From Candidatus Saccharimonadia bacterium (GTDB lineage: Bacteria > Patescibacteriota > Saccharimonadia > Saccharimonadales > UBA4665), in contig JALQUD010000004.1 of NCBI GenBank assembly GCA_023268595.1, positions 1 to 33,560 of the forward strand: a stretch of 33,560 nucleotides of DNA, written 5' to 3'. Positions 22,200 through 33,078 of this stretch are shown one piece after another (position 1 is the first letter of the stretch; each line of letters starts with the position of its first letter). A program made the position numbers and the translations under genes. The notes beneath the pieces are model-generated. The model saw only the letters and a list, made by a program, of their open reading frames with translations, was not told the DNA's origin and searched no databases.

Positions 22200-23627
22200 A
22201 TGAAGAACAATACTTCTTTTGTTTATACCTTATTCCTGGCATTCGGCGATCTGATAGCCCTGGTCATCGGTTTCGTCGCAGCTTACATCTTCCGCGTCTC
22301 CATCAGCGACATCCCCATTGCCACCCCTGTACGTGCCATCGATTACCTTCAGGTTTTTCTGACCCTGCTACCGTTCTGGCTGCTGATCTTCGCCCTGCTG
22401 GGACTGTACGACAGCAATATATATGAGAAGCGTTTCAGCGAGTTCGGCCGCCTGCTGGTCGGTACGTTCATCGGTCTGCTGTTCGTGGTCTTCTACGACT
22501 TCTTGCGCCTGGATCCCATCTTCCCGGCCAAGCTGGTACCGATCTACGGCTTCGTCATCGCATTCTTCTTGTTACTACTGTTCCGGACCTGAGCCCGCGG
22601 TGTCCGTACATTATTATTCGGCTTCGACGTAGGCATTACCAACATCTTACTGGTCGGCAACACCAACATCAGCGACGAGCTGCGGGAAAGCCTGCAGGAC
22701 AGCCGCCGCTCCGGCTATCGCGTGTTAGCCGTGGTGGGCAACAATAAGGGCCATCATGCCGACTATAGGACTTTCCGGTCAGCCTTGGACCACATTGGTA
22801 GTACGCGCCAGATCCACGGCATCTTCCAGACCGAGTTATATCCGGACGAAGAGCACAACCGCGAGATCCTGGATTACGCCCAGGAGCACCACATATCCTA
22901 CCGCTTCATCCCCGGCAACACCGAGCTGTTCGTAGGTAACATCGACGTGGAATTATTCCGTTCCAGCATCCCGGTCATCGCCGTCCGGCAGACACCGTTG
23001 TTCGGTTGGGGTAACGCCGTCAAACGTGTCTTTGACCTGATAGTCAGCGGCATCCTGCTGATATTGGTCTCTCCTGTCATGTTGCTGGTAGCCGTAGCTA
23101 TCAAATTGTCAGGTGGCGGCAGCGTGTTCTTCCGACAAACCCGGCTGACCCGCTACAACCAGCGTTTCCGCGTTTACAAGTTCCGCACCCAATACGCCAA
23201 GTACGACGGCACCACGCCCGAGCAGGCTTTTGCCATGATAGGCAAACCCGAACTAGCCACCGCCTACCGCACCAATGGCGACGCCCTGGACAACGACCCG
23301 CGTATCACCCCGGTCGGCCGCTGGCTACGGGCCAGCAGTCTGGACGAGCTACCCCAATTACTGAACGTCTTCAAGGGTGACCTCAGCCTGGTCGGCCCAC
23401 GTGCACTTATTCCCGAGGAACTGGAACATTTCGATAAACGGCACACCATCCTGAGCGTCAAATGCGGCATGACCGGTCTGGCCGTCGTATCCGGACGTCG
23501 CAACATCCCCTTTGAAGAGCGCCGCAAGCTCGACATGTACTACGTCCAGAACTGGAGCTTCTGGCTGGACCTGACCATCCTGCTCAAGACCATCCGCGTA
23601 GTACTGGAACGCACCGGAGCCCGCTGA
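22200..23627 (+). pseudogene. EPS-priming polyprenyl glycosylphosphotransferase interrupted by in-frame TGA at 22590-22592
   Basis: ORFs 22200-22592 and 22722-23627 share a frame; the gap translates ARGVRTLLFGFDVGITNILLVGNTNISDELRESLQDSRRSGYRV; C-terminus KRVFDLIVSGILLI...FRVYKFRT...LRASSLDELPQLLNVFKGDLSLVGPRALIPEE. Confidence 0.88.
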
Positions 23628-24829: not shown

Positions 24830-25939
24830 TTATTGGCCTTTGGCGCTACACCAGCTGCCGACATCACCGTGATACGCCAAGCTCTGACGGGTCAGGGCGC
24901 ACTTGTCGAACTCCACGGCCTTTGGCTCTGACTTGCGGGTAACGGCGCCAAGCAGACTCTGCACGAAACTGGCCTGGGAATATTCTTTGACCACGCTGTA
25001 GTCATTACCCTGCACGCCAGCCGCTCCAGCCAGCGCATCATATGCATCCTGACGGCTACCGATCTCATCGATCAACTTAAGGTCCTTAGCGGTCTTAGGG
25101 TCGTATGCCATGGCACCGATCTGACCCTTGATAGTATCGGCAGGGATATTACGACGCTCGCTGACGTACTTCACGAAGCCATCGTATTCATTATTGACCT
25201 GGGACTGTAGCTTGTTTACCTCGTCGGCTGTCAGGCGGCGGTAGGGGTTACCGACATCTTTGGATGTACCGGCCGTGATATATGAGGATTCTATGCCGTT
25301 CTGAGTGACGACACCGCCGCCCAGCAGACCACCGTCGGTAGCCACTACCTTGTCATAAAATTGGATCGGCCCCAGGATGACACCGATGCTACCAACATCG
25401 CTACCGTAGTCACTGAAGACCTTGTCGGCACTGACGGCCGCCCAATAAGCGCCGGAAGCACCGGTACCCTCGATGTGGGCGTACACCGGCTTCTTGTTGT
25501 CGGTCTTAGCCTTGAAATATTTCACACCATCAGCGATGGCCCTGGCGCCATAAATGGTGCCACCGGGTGAATCGATTTCCAGGATCACGCCATCAATGGT
25601 CGAGTCATCGGCAGCCCGATACAATTCATCCTTGATGTCATAGCCATAGGCCATGCCGGTGCTGCTAAAGAATGATAGCGAGTCGTCCGAGTGGTTCGTG
25701 CCAGCTATGACGCCGGTGACCGGCACCGACAGGAACTGCCTGGAGCCACTACCGTAGACCGGCTGATAGCCTGAGGTAGAACTCTCGCTGCCGGCTCCAA
25801 GTGCCGCGACCGCACCGAACACACCGAAGGTGATAAGGGTGCCAATCAGACACAATAGGATGACATTCCACGTTACGACGATAGTAAGCGTACGGCGGAA
25901 CAGACCGTACATCAGGGGGTGTTTTTGGCTGAAATTCAT
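24830..25939 (-). CDS. sppA: Signal peptide peptidase SppA-like (S49) membrane protease
   Basis: GVILEIDSPGGTIYGARAIADGVKYFK; VYAHIEGTGASGAYWAAVSADKVFSDYGSDVGSIGVI. Confidence 0.9.
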   Translation of the reverse strand: MNFSQKHPLMYGLFRRTLTIVVTWNVILLCLIGTLITFGVFGAVAALGAGSESSTSGYQPVYGSGSRQFLSVPVTGVIAGTNHSDDSLSFFSSTGMAYGYDIKDELYRAADDSTIDGVILEIDSPGGTIYGARAIADGVKYFKAKTDNKKPVYAHIEGTGASGAYWAAVSADKVFSDYGSDVGSIGVILGPIQFYDKVVATDGGLLGGGVVTQNGIESSYITAGTSKDVGNPYRRLTADEVNKLQSQVNNEYDGFVKYVSERRNIPADTIKGQIGAMAYDPKTAKDLKLIDEIGSRQDAYDALAGAAGVQGNDYSVVKEYSQASFVQSLLGAVTRKSEPKAVEFDKCALTRQSLAYHGDVGSWCSAKGQ

Positions 25940-26028
25940 ATGCATCAGTATGACAGTTCAGGAGGGCTTGCGCTACAGTAATCTAACGTTTTGTGTCGGA
26001 TACGTTACAAATCATTTATATGACCATG

Positions 26029-26040
26029 TGATAATTATCA
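26029..26040. promoter_or_regulatory. 12-bp perfect palindrome abutting the -35 box, candidate operator
   Basis: TGATAATTATCA immediately followed by TTGTGC. Confidence 0.45.
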
Positions 26041-26069
26041 TTGTGCAAAAAATAGTTACATGTTATAAT
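26041..26069 (+). promoter_or_regulatory. Sigma70-like promoter for the ORF at 26104
   Basis: TTGTGC-17 nt-TATAAT; SD GGAG upstream of ATG. Confidence 0.65.
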
Positions 26070-26103
26070 ATATAAATCATTATCCTACTGGAGAATTCTA
26101 GCG

Positions 26104-26910
26104 ATGTCTATTGCTACCCGTGTACGAAGCTTATATAAGCGCATAACTGTCAAAGCTACTGCTAACCGCACTGCCACGCTGCTCATTACCAGCGCTGTAG
26201 TCATCGCGGCCGCTTCGGCAGGAGCCTACGGTATGAGTGGCCGTCACGTCGCCAATACTGCGGACCCGAACCTCGACACAAGCCTGACGAACCTAACCCA
26301 CAACCCTGAAAGCGAAGACGAAACTCAGCAGTCAACAATAACCGGCCAGCGGCAGACTGATCAGACTGGCACCGACACCAAAAGTGACCAGAAGGCCAGC
26401 AGCAAGGCCACCAATTCCAGCTCAAGCACTAATGCAGCAGGCAATAACAGCCAGACCGGCAGCCAAAGCAAGACCGCATCAGCCGGCACTCCACAAGCCA
26501 AGGCGCCGGCATCTGGCCCGACGAGTAGTTATAAGCAACCGACGGTCGCCATGACTATAGTCTCCGCAACCATCAGCACAAGCGGCCGGGCGTGTGTCGA
26601 CGGAGAGGTTCGAAGTGGTTACCAATATAACCTGCAATTCCCAAACAACCATACCGGAGGACAAGTCAGCTATACGTGGGAATACCGCCAGATTCCTGGA
26701 CAGGGCCTACCCCGTGAGCCGATCATGCCATCATCAGCTTCACTCCAGGTACCCGCGGGTCCTTACTCGATGAGCGATACTGTCAGTCCTGCTTACGGCC
26801 TCATGTCTTTCGGCATCCAATCGTACGAGGCCCGATTACGCGTTTCCGGCCCCAATACCGTGTATTCGAACTGGGTTACCGTGCCCGCCATCAGCTGCTC
26901 GCAGTTGTAG
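26104..26910 (+). CDS. Hypothetical membrane-anchored protein with Ser/Thr/Gln-rich linker
   Basis: TM segment LLITSAVVIAAASAGAYGMSG; low-complexity linker; SD plus promoter upstream. Confidence 0.75.
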   Translation: MSIATRVRSLYKRITVKATANRTATLLITSAVVIAAASAGAYGMSGRHVANTADPNLDTSLTNLTHNPESEDETQQSTITGQRQTDQTGTDTKSDQKASSKATNSSSSTNAAGNNSQTGSQSKTASAGTPQAKAPASGPTSSYKQPTVAMTIVSATISTSGRACVDGEVRSGYQYNLQFPNNHTGGQVSYTWEYRQIPGQGLPREPIMPSSASLQVPAGPYSMSDTVSPAYGLMSFGIQSYEARLRVSGPNTVYSNWVTVPAISCSQL

Positions 26911-27079
26911 CAGTTGACGTCTTAAGTACTTGTGCTCTCACATAGTGAGTTACGTTAAAACCAGATCTTTCTCCCAGCGCATCATCTTCACTGCAATCGC
27001 TATGCAACCATTCGAGGTGCCTTGATTTTCATTGCCTTCATCGAGATTTTTCAACGGTCACCCGATTTATCACTTTTAC

Positions 27080-27238
27080 TTAGAGTAGGTGTTGAGGCAA
27101 GACCTTAGAAGCGTCTAAAACTTCTATGCCGCAAAGCTTCCCCGTCGCGTCAAAGTCAAGATTAATTTCTCCATTCCCTATCTCATCAACTGAAATCGTA
27201 AGTGATGATCTTCTTTGATGTCCTATTTTGAGATACAT
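27080..27238 (-). CDS. DUF2283-like small protein (52 aa), missing from the ORF track
   Basis: MYLKIGHQRRSSLTISVDEIGNGEINLDFDATGKLCGIEVLDASKVLPQHLL; INLDFDxxGKLxGIEVLDASKxLP matches the DUF2283 pattern; GGGAAG upstream. Confidence 0.75.
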   Translation of the reverse strand: MYLKIGHQRRSSLTISVDEIGNGEINLDFDATGKLCGIEVLDASKVLPQHLL

Positions 27239-27332
27239 ACAGTGTCTTCCCGGAAGTCATTGTTACGATCACCAGAGTCATAGAGCCAGCTGGTATGATT
27301 ACCATTCGAGCTGGTCCATAGCACGTCGTATT

Positions 27333-27728
27333 CTAATTAGCTAGGAGTTTAATGACGACATCCCGAAGCACAAGACTAACGATAAGAATAGCAATCAGGA
27401 TAGGCAGCCAACTTACCACATAGGCAAACCTTATGTTATGCCGGGATATCTTTTCATGGCTAACTCCTCGGGCTTCTAATTCGCTTAGCATCTTTGAAAG
27501 TCTTAATAACGTAAAGCCGAAACTGTCCTTTTCATTATCAGACGCTATGTGGATGGCGCCCGTCTTCATTACGGAAACTTGTTTTATTGATGCAATCGGT
27601 ACGGTATGGAGCGTTGAACCTATTCGTAGGCTTATCGTCGTGTCATTGAGCGTAAGGAGCGCCCATGGCCATGTAACGCTACCCGTCCCCTTATCGGCTC
27701 CATACAGTTTCTCTATATTACTATCCAT
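27333..27728 (-). CDS. Hypothetical PH-like protein with C-terminal TM
   Basis: NDTTISLRIGSTLHTVPIASIKQVSVMKTGAIHI beta-rich region; C-terminal YVVSWLPILIAILIVSLVL. Confidence 0.65.
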   Translation of the reverse strand: MDSNIEKLYGADKGTGSVTWPWALLTLNDTTISLRIGSTLHTVPIASIKQVSVMKTGAIHIASDNEKDSFGFTLLRLSKMLSELEARGVSHEKISRHNIRFAYVVSWLPILIAILIVSLVLRDVVIKLLAN

Positions 27729-27960
27729 GAACGAAGCGCCAATATAGCCCCCGACATTCTTAACTATAGTTCTCAGTGCATTTCTCCTGCAGCCGTGAAG
27801 ATATCCTAAAACCTCAACTGTGTAATTAGCTTTCGGGTTTAAGCGTGGCGACCATCGTATTGAGTATTATCCTATGAGTCATGCTACACCTAACAATAGC
27901 GGTGTCGCTAATGCCATGTAACAGCTATCGAAATGCCGTGAAACTCACTTACGGCAATAC

Positions 27961-28080
27961 CTATGTAGAGTTATCCTTCTCAAGGTTCTTTTGTCGCTTC
28001 TTTTCAGAGCGATATCCAAGGTACATACCGCCGAATGCGCTTATTAGTGCTAACGAAACGCTTATGATTACATCTTTCAT
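27961..28080 (-). CDS. 39-aa single-TM small protein translationally coupled to the RHS gene
   Basis: MKDVIISVSLALISAFGGMYLGYRSEKKRQKNLEKDNST; ATG overlaps the RHS TGA as ATGA. Confidence 0.65.
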   Translation of the reverse strand: MKDVIISVSLALISAFGGMYLGYRSEKKRQKNLEKDNST

Positions 28081-31000
28081 TTTAAACTCTCGCAATAAGT
28101 ATTAGTAAATACATATTCAGTAGCAGCAATTCCAATTCCTACAGGTGTCGCGTATTTCGTGATCTTATATGCAGTCAACAGTTTGCCTGCGGCATAACCT
28201 GTCGATGTACTAGCCACAAAGGCTGTCGCATCACAAGCGCCGCCAAGTATCCCAGGACCGGTGCCGGTTCCCGCACTTGGATTTTGGTAGCTTCCAGACG
28301 CATTCACCAAATACGGCTGAGTCAACGCCAACCCACTAGGATCAACAAAGTTCACCGGATTATCGTTAGCGTACAGATACCCGAAGTCCTGACCGCTTGG
28401 GTCTAGTTGTGTCCAACGGGCATCACTTGGATTGTAGTATCTTGCACCATATTTGTAAAGATTTGTCGAGGTGTCGAAGTAGCCGTTGGCGTAGCGGATG
28501 GCGTTGGGCGTGGTGCCGGTGCTGCTGATTTGTTGGCCGTAGGGTTCATAGTCGTAGGTGTTGACGACGTTACCGCTGGCATCGGTCATCTTGACGGTGG
28601 AGCCGCGGAGGTCGGTCAGGTAATAGTAGTAGCTACTGCCGATGGTCTGGGCGGTTATCGGGTTGGATCCAGCGGGTAGGCGGGTGTAGTAAGTGCTGGT
28701 CGTACCGGTAGTGTCACTGTACAATCCAAGTAATCCGTTCAACTGAGACATGCTGCCGAACTGGCTGCGGCCCTCCTGGCCGGAGTCGGCGTAGGTCGCA
28801 TTGATGGCTGGTTGGCCGGGTTGCTGGAACGAGCTGGTCTGGTTCTTGGCATTGTAGAACATCGACAGTCCGGCGCCGTTGGATGTCTGGTTGCCGGCAT
28901 TGTCGTAGGTGCCACTTGGCGCGCCGCCATCAGTGACGAGCTGGTTGGCGGCATTGAAGCCGTATATGCCACTGTAGACGCCGTTCTTGGATTTCTGGGT
29001 ACGGTTACCGGCTGCGTCATAGCTATAGGTAAAGCTGCTGGCGCCATTGGAGCCGGCTACGTCGGTCAGGCGGCCCATGCCGTCGTATGAATAGGTGTAG
29101 GTGCCGGTATTGATGTTGTTGATCTCTTTTTGCAGGTACTCGGTATCCTTGGTGCCGGCGGCGTTCATGTAGGTACCAGTGTAATCGGTAAGGGTGGTGA
29201 TACCATTCTTGACGGCTTTGACTGACGTCTGGCGGCCCGCTTGGTCATAGCTCATGGTCTGGACGATGTTGCCCGGTAGCCAGGCGGTGGTTATCTTGCC
29301 GTCAGTGTAGGCGAAGTCCTGGTTGGCGCCGTTCGGTTGGTTAATGCGCGTCACCTGGTTGGCATCGTCGTAGCTGTAGGTGACGGTGCCGAACGGACCC
29401 TGTTCGGTCTTGAGGTTACCAGCGGCATCATAGGTGTAGTTCAGGTCCGGCTTACCGGTTTGCTGGATCTTGGTTATGCGGTTATATCCGTCGTACGTCC
29501 AGTTGGTCGTGCCGGTAGCATCGGTGCGCTGCGTCAGATTACCGGCGTTGTCGTAGGTGTAGCCGATGACCGATCCGCCGGTGGCGTAGGTCATGTTGGT
29601 AGGGCGGTCGGCGTTGTCGTAGGTCATGGTGACTTTGGAGCCGTTACCGTCGGTGTAGGTCTTGATGCGCGACAGGCTGTCGTAAGTGTACGTCTTAGCG
29701 CCGAGCGGCCCAGGAGGCGTTACGGTAATCACATTACCGAGGCTGTCGTAGGCGAAGGTAGTGACGTTACCACGGGCATCGGTGGAGGTACATATCTGGC
29801 CGGCTTTGGCGCCGCAGCTGATCGTGCCGCCCGAGCCGTTAGGGTCACCCTGGTATTTGTTGGTGATGGTGCCCATGGCGATGCCACCGGAGCTGGCGCT
29901 TGCCGTGCTGGCCACGCTGCCGTAGGCATTATAGCTATAGCTGACGGTGTTGCCGGCGGCGTCGGTCTTCTTGGATGGCTTGTAGGGTAAGGTCGTGTTG
30001 GTGTAGTCGTATTGCTCTTTCGCGCCAGCTACGCCTCCGGCGGCGGTCGGTTTCTGGACGGAAGTCAGGTTGTTGAGCGCGTCGTAGGTGCTGGTGTTGG
30101 CGCGGTTGAAGGCGTCCGAAGTCGTCGTGCGGTTGTTGCTGGCGTCCCAGGTCGCACCTTTGTTGTCGCCGACGGCATTCTTAGTGTTAGTGATGCGTCC
30201 CGAAGCATCATACGTGTAGGTGCTAGCGTGGCCGAGCGGGTCGGTGACGACGGTTTTGGCGTTGGGGTTGTCGTAGCTATAAGTCCAAGTGGTCTTGTTG
30301 GCAGTGTAGTCGTTGTAGTTGATGGTGGTGACGCGGCCGCTGCCGTCATAGCTAAGGGTGGTGGAATTGTTGCGGGGGTCGACGATCCAGGTGACGTTAG
30401 TACCGTCCCAGTATTCGAAGTGCCAGGTCTTGCCGTTCGTGTCGGTGACGTCGCTCAGTTTGCCGGAACTGTCATAAGTGTATTGGACGGTGCGCCCGGC
30501 CGGGTCGGTGATGGTGCCGACTTTGGTACCACTGTAATTACTGAAAGTGGTGACCTTGCCCTGGCTGTCGGTAGCGCTGGCTAGCGTGCCGTTAGTGTTG
30601 TAGGCGTAGTTGATTGCCAGGCCGGCGGTGTTAGCCTCCTTAGTGAGCTTACCGCTGGCATTGAAGGTGTAGACCTGGCCGCTTTGGTTATAGGTTAGCT
30701 TCCAGCCTCCGCCGGAGACGTTCTCCAGTTTGCCGGCAGTGAACTCGGCTGGTGATGTATAACCGCCGCTACCGTTGGACGGGAACGTGACTTTGAATCC
30801 GGATGGTCCCTGGTATGTGGCTGAACCGCCGGCTCCGGCAGTTATCGAGACATCCGGTCCGACGCTCAACGTACCGTGGTGGCCGGTCTGGCCGGCACCG
30901 GTTGCCTGGCCGTTGAAGTAACGGGTGACCGATAGTGACGGTCCGGCGCTAGCGACCGTCAGGTCCTGCGTCTTAAGTATGACGTTGCCGTTAGCGACAT

Positions 31001-31256
31001 TGACGAGCAGACCGGAACGGTCGGTCAGCGTCTGGGAAACGGTTGTCTGGTAGGGCAGCTCACCGAGTACGGTTGGTGGGGTTATAGCGTTGGCGTAGTG
31101 GGTCCATACCGAAAAACTGGCAAGGCTCATCGCCAGTGCGATAAGGGTTACGCTGGCGGACCTTAGGGTTAATCTTGAGGCTAAACGTTTATGCTTTTGT
31201 ATGCGTAGTTTTCTAGCTGCGTCTATCTTTGACTGTATGAGCTTATGCCTGTACAT
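28077..31256 (-). CDS. RHS-repeat protein with RHS core and short variable C-terminal tip
   Basis: Many YDxxGR/YxYDxxGN repeats; YYYYLTDLRGSTVKMTDASGNVVNTYDYEPYG and DPSGQDFGYLYANDNPVNFVDPSGL core; start trimmed to MYRHKLIQ at 31256 with a TM segment after it. Confidence 0.88.
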   Translation of the reverse strand: MYRHKLIQSKIDAARKLRIQKHKRLASRLTLRSASVTLIALAMSLASFSVWTHYANAITPPTVLGELPYQTTVSQTLTDRSGLLVNVANGNVILKTQDLTVASAGPSLSVTRYFNGQATGAGQTGHHGTLSVGPDVSITAGAGGSATYQGPSGFKVTFPSNGSGGYTSPAEFTAGKLENVSGGGWKLTYNQSGQVYTFNASGKLTKEANTAGLAINYAYNTNGTLASATDSQGKVTTFSNYSGTKVGTITDPAGRTVQYTYDSSGKLSDVTDTNGKTWHFEYWDGTNVTWIVDPRNNSTTLSYDGSGRVTTINYNDYTANKTTWTYSYDNPNAKTVVTDPLGHASTYTYDASGRITNTKNAVGDNKGATWDASNNRTTTSDAFNRANTSTYDALNNLTSVQKPTAAGGVAGAKEQYDYTNTTLPYKPSKKTDAAGNTVSYSYNAYGSVASTASASSGGIAMGTITNKYQGDPNGSGGTISCGAKAGQICTSTDARGNVTTFAYDSLGNVITVTPPGPLGAKTYTYDSLSRIKTYTDGNGSKVTMTYDNADRPTNMTYATGGSVIGYTYDNAGNLTQRTDATGTTNWTYDGYNRITKIQQTGKPDLNYTYDAAGNLKTEQGPFGTVTYSYDDANQVTRINQPNGANQDFAYTDGKITTAWLPGNIVQTMSYDQAGRQTSVKAVKNGITTLTDYTGTYMNAAGTKDTEYLQKEINNINTGTYTYSYDGMGRLTDVAGSNGASSFTYSYDAAGNRTQKSKNGVYSGIYGFNAANQLVTDGGAPSGTYDNAGNQTSNGAGLSMFYNAKNQTSSFQQPGQPAINATYADSGQEGRSQFGSMSQLNGLLGLYSDTTGTTSTYYTRLPAGSNPITAQTIGSSYYYYLTDLRGSTVKMTDASGNVVNTYDYEPYGQQISSTGTTPNAIRYANGYFDTSTNLYKYGARYYNPSDARWTQLDPSGQDFGYLYANDNPVNFVDPSGLALTQPYLVNASGSYQNPSAGTGTGPGILGGACDATAFVASTSTGYAAGKLLTAYKITKYATPVGIGIAATEYVFTNTYCESLK

Positions 31257-31323
31257 CCGTTCCACCCTATCCCACTCTGACCGCTTCCGTCTTATTGTAA
31301 ATAGCTCTACGCGAATAATACTG

Positions 31324-31340
31324 CCGCTTAGCATAAGCGG
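31324..31340. repeat. Short inverted repeat upstream of RHS start
   Basis: CCGCTTA-GCA-TAAGCGG. Confidence 0.4.
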
Positions 31341-31428: not shown

Positions 31429-31434
31429 TATAAT
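31429..31434 (+). promoter_or_regulatory. Extended -10 (TGaTATAAT) 9 nt upstream of ATG 31444
   Basis: TTTTGATATAATCAGATTATTATG. Confidence 0.6.
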
Positions 31435-31443
31435 CAGATTATT

Positions 31444-31619
31444 ATGGACAAGCAAACGAGCAAGCGGCAAAAAAAGTAAACCAAGCTGTCGCGAACGAAT
31501 ATTTGGAAGGACTTGTAGTCTCCAAGGAGTCGCGATCGATCGCCAATAGTTATGTAGTCGGTAAAGCGAGTGCCAAGAATGCTGCCGACAAGATACGAAA
31601 ACGTTACGAACTCCGCTGA
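31444..31619 (+). CDS. VbhA-like antitoxin, needs a -1 shift at A_AAA_AAG (31470-31476) or is a frameshifted pseudogene
   Basis: Frame of ATG: MDKQTSKRQKK then UAA; -1 frame: VNQAVANEYLEGLVVSKESRSIANSYVVGKASAKNAADKIRKRYELR*; together 58 aa. Confidence 0.65.
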
Positions 31620-31737
31620 TACCACCGGCACGACCAGCACCTACTATACCCGCCTGCCTGCTGGATCCAACCCGATAACTAGCCAGACCATCGGCAGCAA
31701 TTACTACTATTACCTCACCGACCTCCACGGCTCCACC
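31618..31737 (+). pseudogene. RHS-core fragment, inverted relative to the intact RHS gene
   Basis: DTTGTTSTYYTRLPAGSNPITSQTIGSNYYYYLTDLHGST aligns without gaps to 28596-28715 (-); 106 of 120 nt identical by hand count. Confidence 0.9.
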
Positions 31738-32084
31738 ATGTCAGGGTGAAGTGCTTTTAAGTGAGTTTGGGACCACGTCCCCAACCCCTCGATGACAGGC
31801 TGCAGATCCCTGCCGCTCTTTGTGAGTTGGTAGGTGTTGTTCCGAGCAGCTGCTTCCGGGTTTGTCCGCTCAATGATGCCGGCGGCGGTGAGGGAGCGAA
31901 GCCTGGAGGCCAGGATGTTCGAGGAGATGTGTTCGGGTGCGGTGAGGAACTCTGAGTACGTTAGGCGGCCGTGTGCCAGCAAGTCCCGCACGATGAGCAA
32001 GGACCATTTGTCGCCAAGGCAATCAAGCCCGGAACTTACGGGACAGACAGACCGCCATCCGTCACGCGCTATTTCTTTGCTCAT
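31710..32084 (-). CDS. HxlR-family winged-helix regulator, C-terminus probably replaced at the junction
   Basis: CPVSSGLDCLGDKWSLLIVRDLLAHGRLTYSEF; last residues (VEPWRSVR) are encoded antisense to the RHS fragment. Confidence 0.85.
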   Translation of the reverse strand: MSKEIARDGWRSVCPVSSGLDCLGDKWSLLIVRDLLAHGRLTYSEFLTAPEHISSNILASRLRSLTAAGIIERTNPEAAARNNTYQLTKSGRDLQPVIEGLGTWSQTHLKALHPDMVEPWRSVR

Positions 32085-33078
32085 TGGTCCCCTGGGTCGA
32101 CAGAGAAGCAGCCATGTCCAAGAAGGAGGTTTTCATTGGGGTGGCTCGCCAGTCAAGAACTTGTGACGTTGTTGTTGTGTCGAGGGTGGTTCGCTTTCCC
32201 AGCATCGGCACGGCGCCGCGTGCTTCTCGACTAAACAGGCCCATCGCCTTGAGGAGCACCGTCGGTGCTTTGCGCGTTGAGACCCTTGAGTAGCCGGCTT
32301 GCTTGAGAATCTCGGCAAGTTCCGTGTAGGGCACGGGGTCTGAGGTGGCCGCGATGAAACGTTGCCCTGCGGCGAGAGGTGTGGTCATCGCTTTCACGTG
32401 GAGCTTTGCCACGTCCCGGACGTCGACCACGTTCAGAGCAATGTCTGGGAGCATCGGCATCTTGCCACCGATCATGTCGGACATCATCGAGACGCTTGAG
32501 CTGCTGAGTTCAGGGTCTAGCGGTGGTCCAGAGACCCCACCGGGATTAATGACGGTGAGTTCCATGTCACCCCCCTGAACGGCTTCCCAGGCAGCTTGCT
32601 CAGCGAGCGTCTTGCTCTTGGCGTAGGCGCCGATGTTTGCGGTGGTGTCCGACCAGGAGTCAGGGCCGTAGCGGCCGTTGCTCCGGCCGGCAACCATCGC
32701 GAAGGTGGATGATGTGAGAACGAGGCGGGTCACTCCAGCCCGTTGCGCAGCCTTGATCACGCGGACGGTCCCATTGACCGCCGGAGCAATCACGTCATTT
32801 TCATCTTTCGGCTCGGTCAGGATGAATGGAGACGCGACATGCATGACGTATGTGCATCCAGACATGGCATCGTCCCAGCCAGCATCGGAGACAAGATTCG
32901 TCTCCGCGAAGCTAAGACGGTCTACCGGGGCTACGGCTGCGATCGCGTCCTTCGTTGCTTCGGTCTTTGATTGTGAGCGAACAGTCCCAATGACCTCGTA
33001 GTTACTTCGAAGCAATTCGGCTGCGATGTGCTGCCCGATGTAGCCGCTAATGCCTGTAACGAGGACTCTTTCGGTCAT
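32062..33078 (-). CDS. Extended SDR / NAD-dependent epimerase (dihydroflavonol-reductase-like)
   Basis: VLVTGISGYIGQHIAAELL, GAYAKSKTLAEQ (YxxxK), VVDVRDVAKLHVKAM. Confidence 0.92.
   Translation of the reverse strand: MTERVLVTGISGYIGQHIAAELLRSNYEVIGTVRSQSKTEATKDAIAAVAPVDRLSFAETNLVSDAGWDDAMSGCTYVMHVASPFILTEPKDENDVIAPAVNGTVRVIKAAQRAGVTRLVLTSSTFAMVAGRSNGRYGPDSWSDTTANIGAYAKSKTLAEQAAWEAVQGGDMELTVINPGGVSGPPLDPELSSSSVSMMSDMIGGKMPMLPDIALNVVDVRDVAKLHVKAMTTPLAAGQRFIAATSDPVPYTELAEILKQAGYSRVSTRKAPTVLLKAMGLFSREARGAVPMLGKRTTLDTTTTSQVLDWRATPMKTSFLDMAASLSTQGTNEQRNSA

Follow-up and report, generated by a model that had tools for sequence, protein, structure and literature searches.

Is an antitoxin gene whose initiation codon and conserved body lie in different reading frames a device of programmed recoding, a product of sequence error, or a gene in decay? 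This question is raised by a locus in a 33,560-nt stretch of DNA (hereafter, the window), for which an initial annotation proposed two readings, namely an antitoxin dosage set by ribosomal frameshifting or transcript slippage and, alternatively, a decaying orphan. The comparison with related loci points to the second one, and the gene is best explained as the probable toxin-less remnant of a class I FicTA operon (VbhA/VbhT type), carrying a recent frameshift and undergoing ordinary decay.

Anatomy of the Antitoxin Gene

The features of the locus are collected in Table 1. Re-reading of the sequence places each element where the initial annotation had located it, including the −10 hexamer ahead of the ATG, the short zero frame closed by UAA, the heptamer in phase ahead of this stop, and a body in the −1 frame with no ATG of its own. 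Joined, the two parts give a product of 58 aa, a length equalled by four of the five relatives that were compared in this respect. The position of the −10 element implies a predicted leaderless or near-leaderless antitoxin transcript. The −1 frame is open from 31434 to 31616, and an alternative start within it was rejected, since the stretch from the upstream TAA to the conserved core contains no ATG, GTG or TTG. Hence, no single translatable frame runs through the gene from an initiation codon: the frame of the ATG closes at 31477 and that of the body is startless.

Table 1. Features of the frame-broken antitoxin locus and its surroundings (positions within the window).
Feature	Position	Strand	Remarks
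Putative −10 element TATAAT, preceded by TG	31429–31434	+	TGATATAAT; read from sequence, 9 nt 5' of ATG 31444
Antitoxin zero-frame start, MDKQTSKRQKK then UAA (31477–31479)	31444–31479	+	In register with the N-termini of intact relatives
A7 run, site of the frame break	31469–31475	+	One-base gap in the DNA alignment against seven in-frame relatives
A_AAA_AAG heptamer	31470–31476	+	Correct phase for a −1 shift, UAA directly behind
VbhA family antitoxin body, −1 frame	31473–31619	+	LEGL (inhibitory Glu-Gly) retained; ends at TGA 31617–31619
RHS gene fragment	31617–31749	+	Inverted copy of 28586–28716; 121-nt inverted repeat at 88%; 133-column alignment (86–88% identity)
Intact RHS/YD-repeat protein gene	28077–31334	−	1085 aa; local source or relative of the fragment
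HxlR regulator and NAD-dependent epimerase/dehydratase (SDR) pair	31710–33078	−	SDR at 32062–33078

Family Identity and Intact Relatives

The antitoxin body matches the Pfam profile PF18495 (VbhA) with an E-value of 1.2e-7 and 32 bits, above the curated cut-off of 25.9 and along profile positions 3–47 of 47, which bears out the VbhA-type resemblance noticed initially. Judged by its sequence, it is a genuine member of this family by descent. NCBIfam and PADLOC profiles gave no useful match to the antitoxin itself, phage records gave none, and plasmid records yielded one weak Corynebacterium match. The inhibitory motif of VbhA is defined as (S/T)xxxE(G/N) (PMC3667792). The Glu-Gly pair of this motif, aligned with the SQRLEG of VbhA, is retained in the window, while the Ser/Thr position is occupied by Asn both here and in all close, intact relatives.

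Relatives were found by searching related genomes with the antitoxin body and then with a profile. Seven intact copies were recovered, six of them in the window's own family of genomes (G012, G032, G044, G052, G296 and G304) and one on a contig labelled Micrococcales; outside that family, a 382-genome sample of the phylum contained only a marginal match. Within the set searched, the window's genome was the sole representative of its genus. All seven encode the antitoxin in one uninterrupted ATG-to-stop frame of 58–60 aa, and directly behind it lies a class I Fic ORF of about 200 aa, which overlaps or abuts the antitoxin stop. The Fic proteins of these relatives carry HPFREGNGR, and both of the two tested match PF02661. 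Moreover, six of the seven (L002, L003, L004, L005, L021 and L022) have TATAAT 6–9 nt 5' of the antitoxin start codon and the remaining one (L009) has TAAAAT, which suggests that leaderless transcription of the antitoxin–Fic operon may be conserved among the six. The Fic partner in L002 also matches the model of the candidate defence Fic PDC-S04 (PADLOC-DB PDLC04838) at 5e-62; the corresponding gene is absent from the window.

The zero-frame peptide of the window is in register with the relatives' N-termini MNKQALKRKNN, MNKQSLKRTKN and MNKQSLKRKKN, and the −1-frame body continues in register; therefore, the two are halves of one ancestral frame. In the DNA alignment with the seven intact relatives, they are separated by a single one-base gap, which lies within the A run and is found only in the window.

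Loss of the Fic Toxin and the Right End of the Contig

With the class I Fic module VbhA/VbhT of Bartonella schoenbuchensis (PDB 3SHG and 3ZC7; PF18495), the locus shares a small antitoxin with an LEGL inhibitory-helix core and, in its relatives, the placement of this antitoxin directly upstream of a Fic gene. However, the window differs in that the antitoxin frame is broken and no HxFx(D/E)GNGRxxR Fic gene follows it, as one does in each of the seven relatives; tblastn detected no Fic gene of their class in the whole window, in agreement with the initial annotation. Because both the adjacent Fic gene and a translatable frame are missing, this is not a working VbhA/VbhT module. Nor was a close relative of the lost Fic found elsewhere in the organism's own draft genome, which is 86% complete. 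The strongest Fic match there lies on contig C100. As candidate targets on which the antitoxin might act in trans, two others were considered and set aside: contig C11 encodes a Doc-like Fic, and contig C147 contains a Fic fragment with HPFMEGNGR that is 33% identical and cut by the contig end. This last protein presumably resembles the class III Fics, which carry their own inhibitory helix.

The place of the toxin is taken by a piece of RHS sequence. The RHS homology starts exactly at the first base of the antitoxin TGA, so that the fragment supplies the stop codon and occupies the point at which the Fic gene begins in all relatives. Apart from the local RHS gene, no other copy of the fragment was found in the genome. 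An RHS-linked immunity gene, in which the antitoxin would counteract an RHS toxin, was considered and rejected, since the relatives all pair the antitoxin with Fic, while the RHS piece is inverted and no more than 133 nt long.

Beyond the fragment, the SDR gene has no relative at E ≤ 1e-20 among 99 related genomes, and the HxlR/SDR pair may have been acquired horizontally or may mark a foreign contig end. A chimeric end, in which the assembler would have joined antitoxin, RHS piece and HxlR/SDR genes of different genomes or loci at a short RHS stretch, therefore has to be weighed, and in that case the loss of the toxin would be an artefact. The junction segment is only about 133 nt long, and in tetranucleotide composition the right end gives a correlation of 0.55, compared with a median of 0.83 for the other segments. 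Nevertheless, the right end does not stand apart from the remaining contig in GC or third-position GC, some other segments (~25.8–28.8 kb) are even less typical in composition, the RHS fragment is only 86–88% identical to the local copy without another copy in the genome, and the frame break would be left unexplained. Taken together, we regard a misassembled end as rather improbable.

As for the remainder of the contig, the region with the tetranucleotide composition least like the rest (~25800–28800) lies to the left of the RHS gene and overlaps its end, and GC is low between 27.0 and 28.5 kb (about 42–47% where measured). A second broken gene is also present, which encodes a WcaJ/EPS-type sugar transferase (22200–23627, + strand) and is interrupted by one in-frame TGA (22590–22592); TIGR03025 is matched on either side of this codon, and the frame stays open past it.

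The Slippery Heptamer and the Question of Recoding

A ribosomal −1 shift, or a slip of RNA polymerase on the A run, might in principle produce the 58-aa antitoxin in useful amounts, whether the shift is a correction that the cell tolerates or a device for setting dosage. Such functional recoding would agree with the right phase of the heptamer, the stop codon directly behind it and the conserved antitoxin body. Moreover, when stimulators accompany it, A_AAA_AAG ranks with the most efficient −1 motifs of E. coli (PMC4066793), and in some endosymbionts 12–50% of the transcripts of broken genes are corrected through transcript slippage at long poly(A) runs (PMC5009743). The site has the identical heptamer, in the identical phase, as the −1 sites of dnaX and the IS3 family, but it differs from these in that no stimulator rises above chance, homologues do not conserve the site and a second product of known role is lacking. 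In the same way, the locus shares with the poly(A)-tract frameshifted genes of reduced-genome endosymbionts (PMC5009743) a one-base break in an A run and a possible bypass by slippage, although its run is only seven bases long and the bypass is hypothetical; selection against transcript slippage at A/T runs is evident in many genomes only from about nine bases (PMC1088944).

Regarding stimulators, downstream folds scored z-values of +0.2 to −1.2 against shuffled controls and −0.2 in a longer segment, while the hairpin begins about 11 nt from the shift site. A structural stimulator was consequently rejected, the fold scores not being significant. The initial annotation had suggested a downstream pairing, of which the TCGCGA copies are indeed present (31489–31494 and 31530–31535), but the hairpin is no better than that of shuffled sequence. 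No Shine–Dalgarno-like stimulator was seen upstream of the heptamer. Thus, among the hallmarks of programmed −1 frameshifting, the slippery heptamer in phase is present, whereas stimulator and conservation in homologues are absent. The heptamer itself is no rarer than chance, AAAAAAG occurring twice in the window against 1.5 occurrences expected from shuffles; it is the homology of the two halves that goes beyond chance expectation. In addition, the loss of one base from a Lys-Lys pair AAA AAA followed by G creates heptamer and phase together, and the site is therefore no independent evidence of programming.

The homologous loci are more telling, as none of the seven intact copies carries A_AAA_AAG at the corresponding place or an interruption of the frame, the very outcome that the initial annotation had set against its own dosage proposal. 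In two of them (L003 and L005) an in-frame A_AAA_AAC stands there, and the gene runs on uninterrupted. Moreover, the toxin whose dosage would need tuning is gone, and nothing supports regulated dosage control. We consequently hold functional recoding to be unlikely, to about the same degree as a misassembled contig end. Residual adventitious −1 slippage may yield some full-length protein without being a selected device. The more specific idea that the toxin-less antitoxin is retained as a low-dose anti-addiction protein, made only through −1 slippage at A_AAA_AAG, is very improbable; if true, it would represent a toxin–antitoxin antitoxin expressed through recoding in a small-genome lineage.

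Sequence Error and Constraint on the Antitoxin Body

The main alternative to real decay is a base-call or assembly error in a homopolymer of a draft MAG, in which case the real gene would be an intact, toxin-less orphan VbhA, perhaps serving anti-addiction against incoming Fic toxins. In favour of this, the draft genome consists of 174 contigs, of which the window is one in its full length, the break amounts to one base of a homopolymer, the body is highly constrained, and promoter and ATG are kept. However, no frame break was noticed at the other homopolymers of 6–7 bases in the window (few of which were compared against relatives), a one-base error in an A7 run would be uncommon if the assembly derives from short reads, and the adjoining loss of Fic makes real decay plausible. 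On balance, an error is unlikely, albeit somewhat less so than recoding.

The body contains no in-frame stop and retains LEGL, along with 21 columns at which the window and its relatives do not vary. Its pN/pS against the intact relatives is 0.24–0.49, compared with a mean of 0.19 between intact pairs and 0.38–0.60 for a decayed copy in genome G295, these being rough figures from only 42 codons with synonymous sites near saturation in most pairs. Selection on the body thus appears only mildly relaxed, and the values fit a frame that was selected for most of its history and was then recently broken or is still partly decoded. A body so well kept, with pN/pS far below 1, therefore indicates that the break is recent, an error, or partly bypassed.

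A Probable Decaying Fic Module and Its Implications

The decaying orphan of the initial annotation is favoured by the absence of Fic, the RHS piece at the junction and the one-base gap relative to intact relatives; at the level of sequence comparison, the loss of Fic, the frame break and the homology of the body are demonstrated. The ancestor would have encoded a leaderless 58-aa antitoxin with a Fic toxin of about 200 aa right behind it, the two genes either overlapping slightly or nearly abutting. Recombination would then have deleted Fic from its first codon onward, inserting the inverted RHS piece that now supplies the antitoxin stop. Left without a toxin to hold in check, the antitoxin would have lost its selective value, and the one-base break could have arisen in the A-rich Lys-Lys stretch, so that normal translation would end after 11 residues. 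That the toxin was lost before the frameshift, and that the gene lacks a function, we infer.

An independent parallel is provided by genome G295, where a decayed antitoxin copy (L024/L028; G295:C13 at ~26000, − strand) has a premature TAA and a frame break, and adjoins a Fic remnant that contains a stop and is recognisable only in its first ~38 residues. As read from these sequences, this copy shows that such decay occurs in the lineage.

Demonstrated recoding would amount to an unusual mode of antitoxin expression, but the comparative evidence points the opposite way. The locus also calls for caution, since an indel in the A run of a Lys-Lys pair will by itself leave a perfect slippery heptamer next to a stop. 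Of the eight carriers found within the window's family of genomes, two have decayed independently of one another, which would represent a recurrent route by which Fic toxin–antitoxin modules die in a small-genome lineage.
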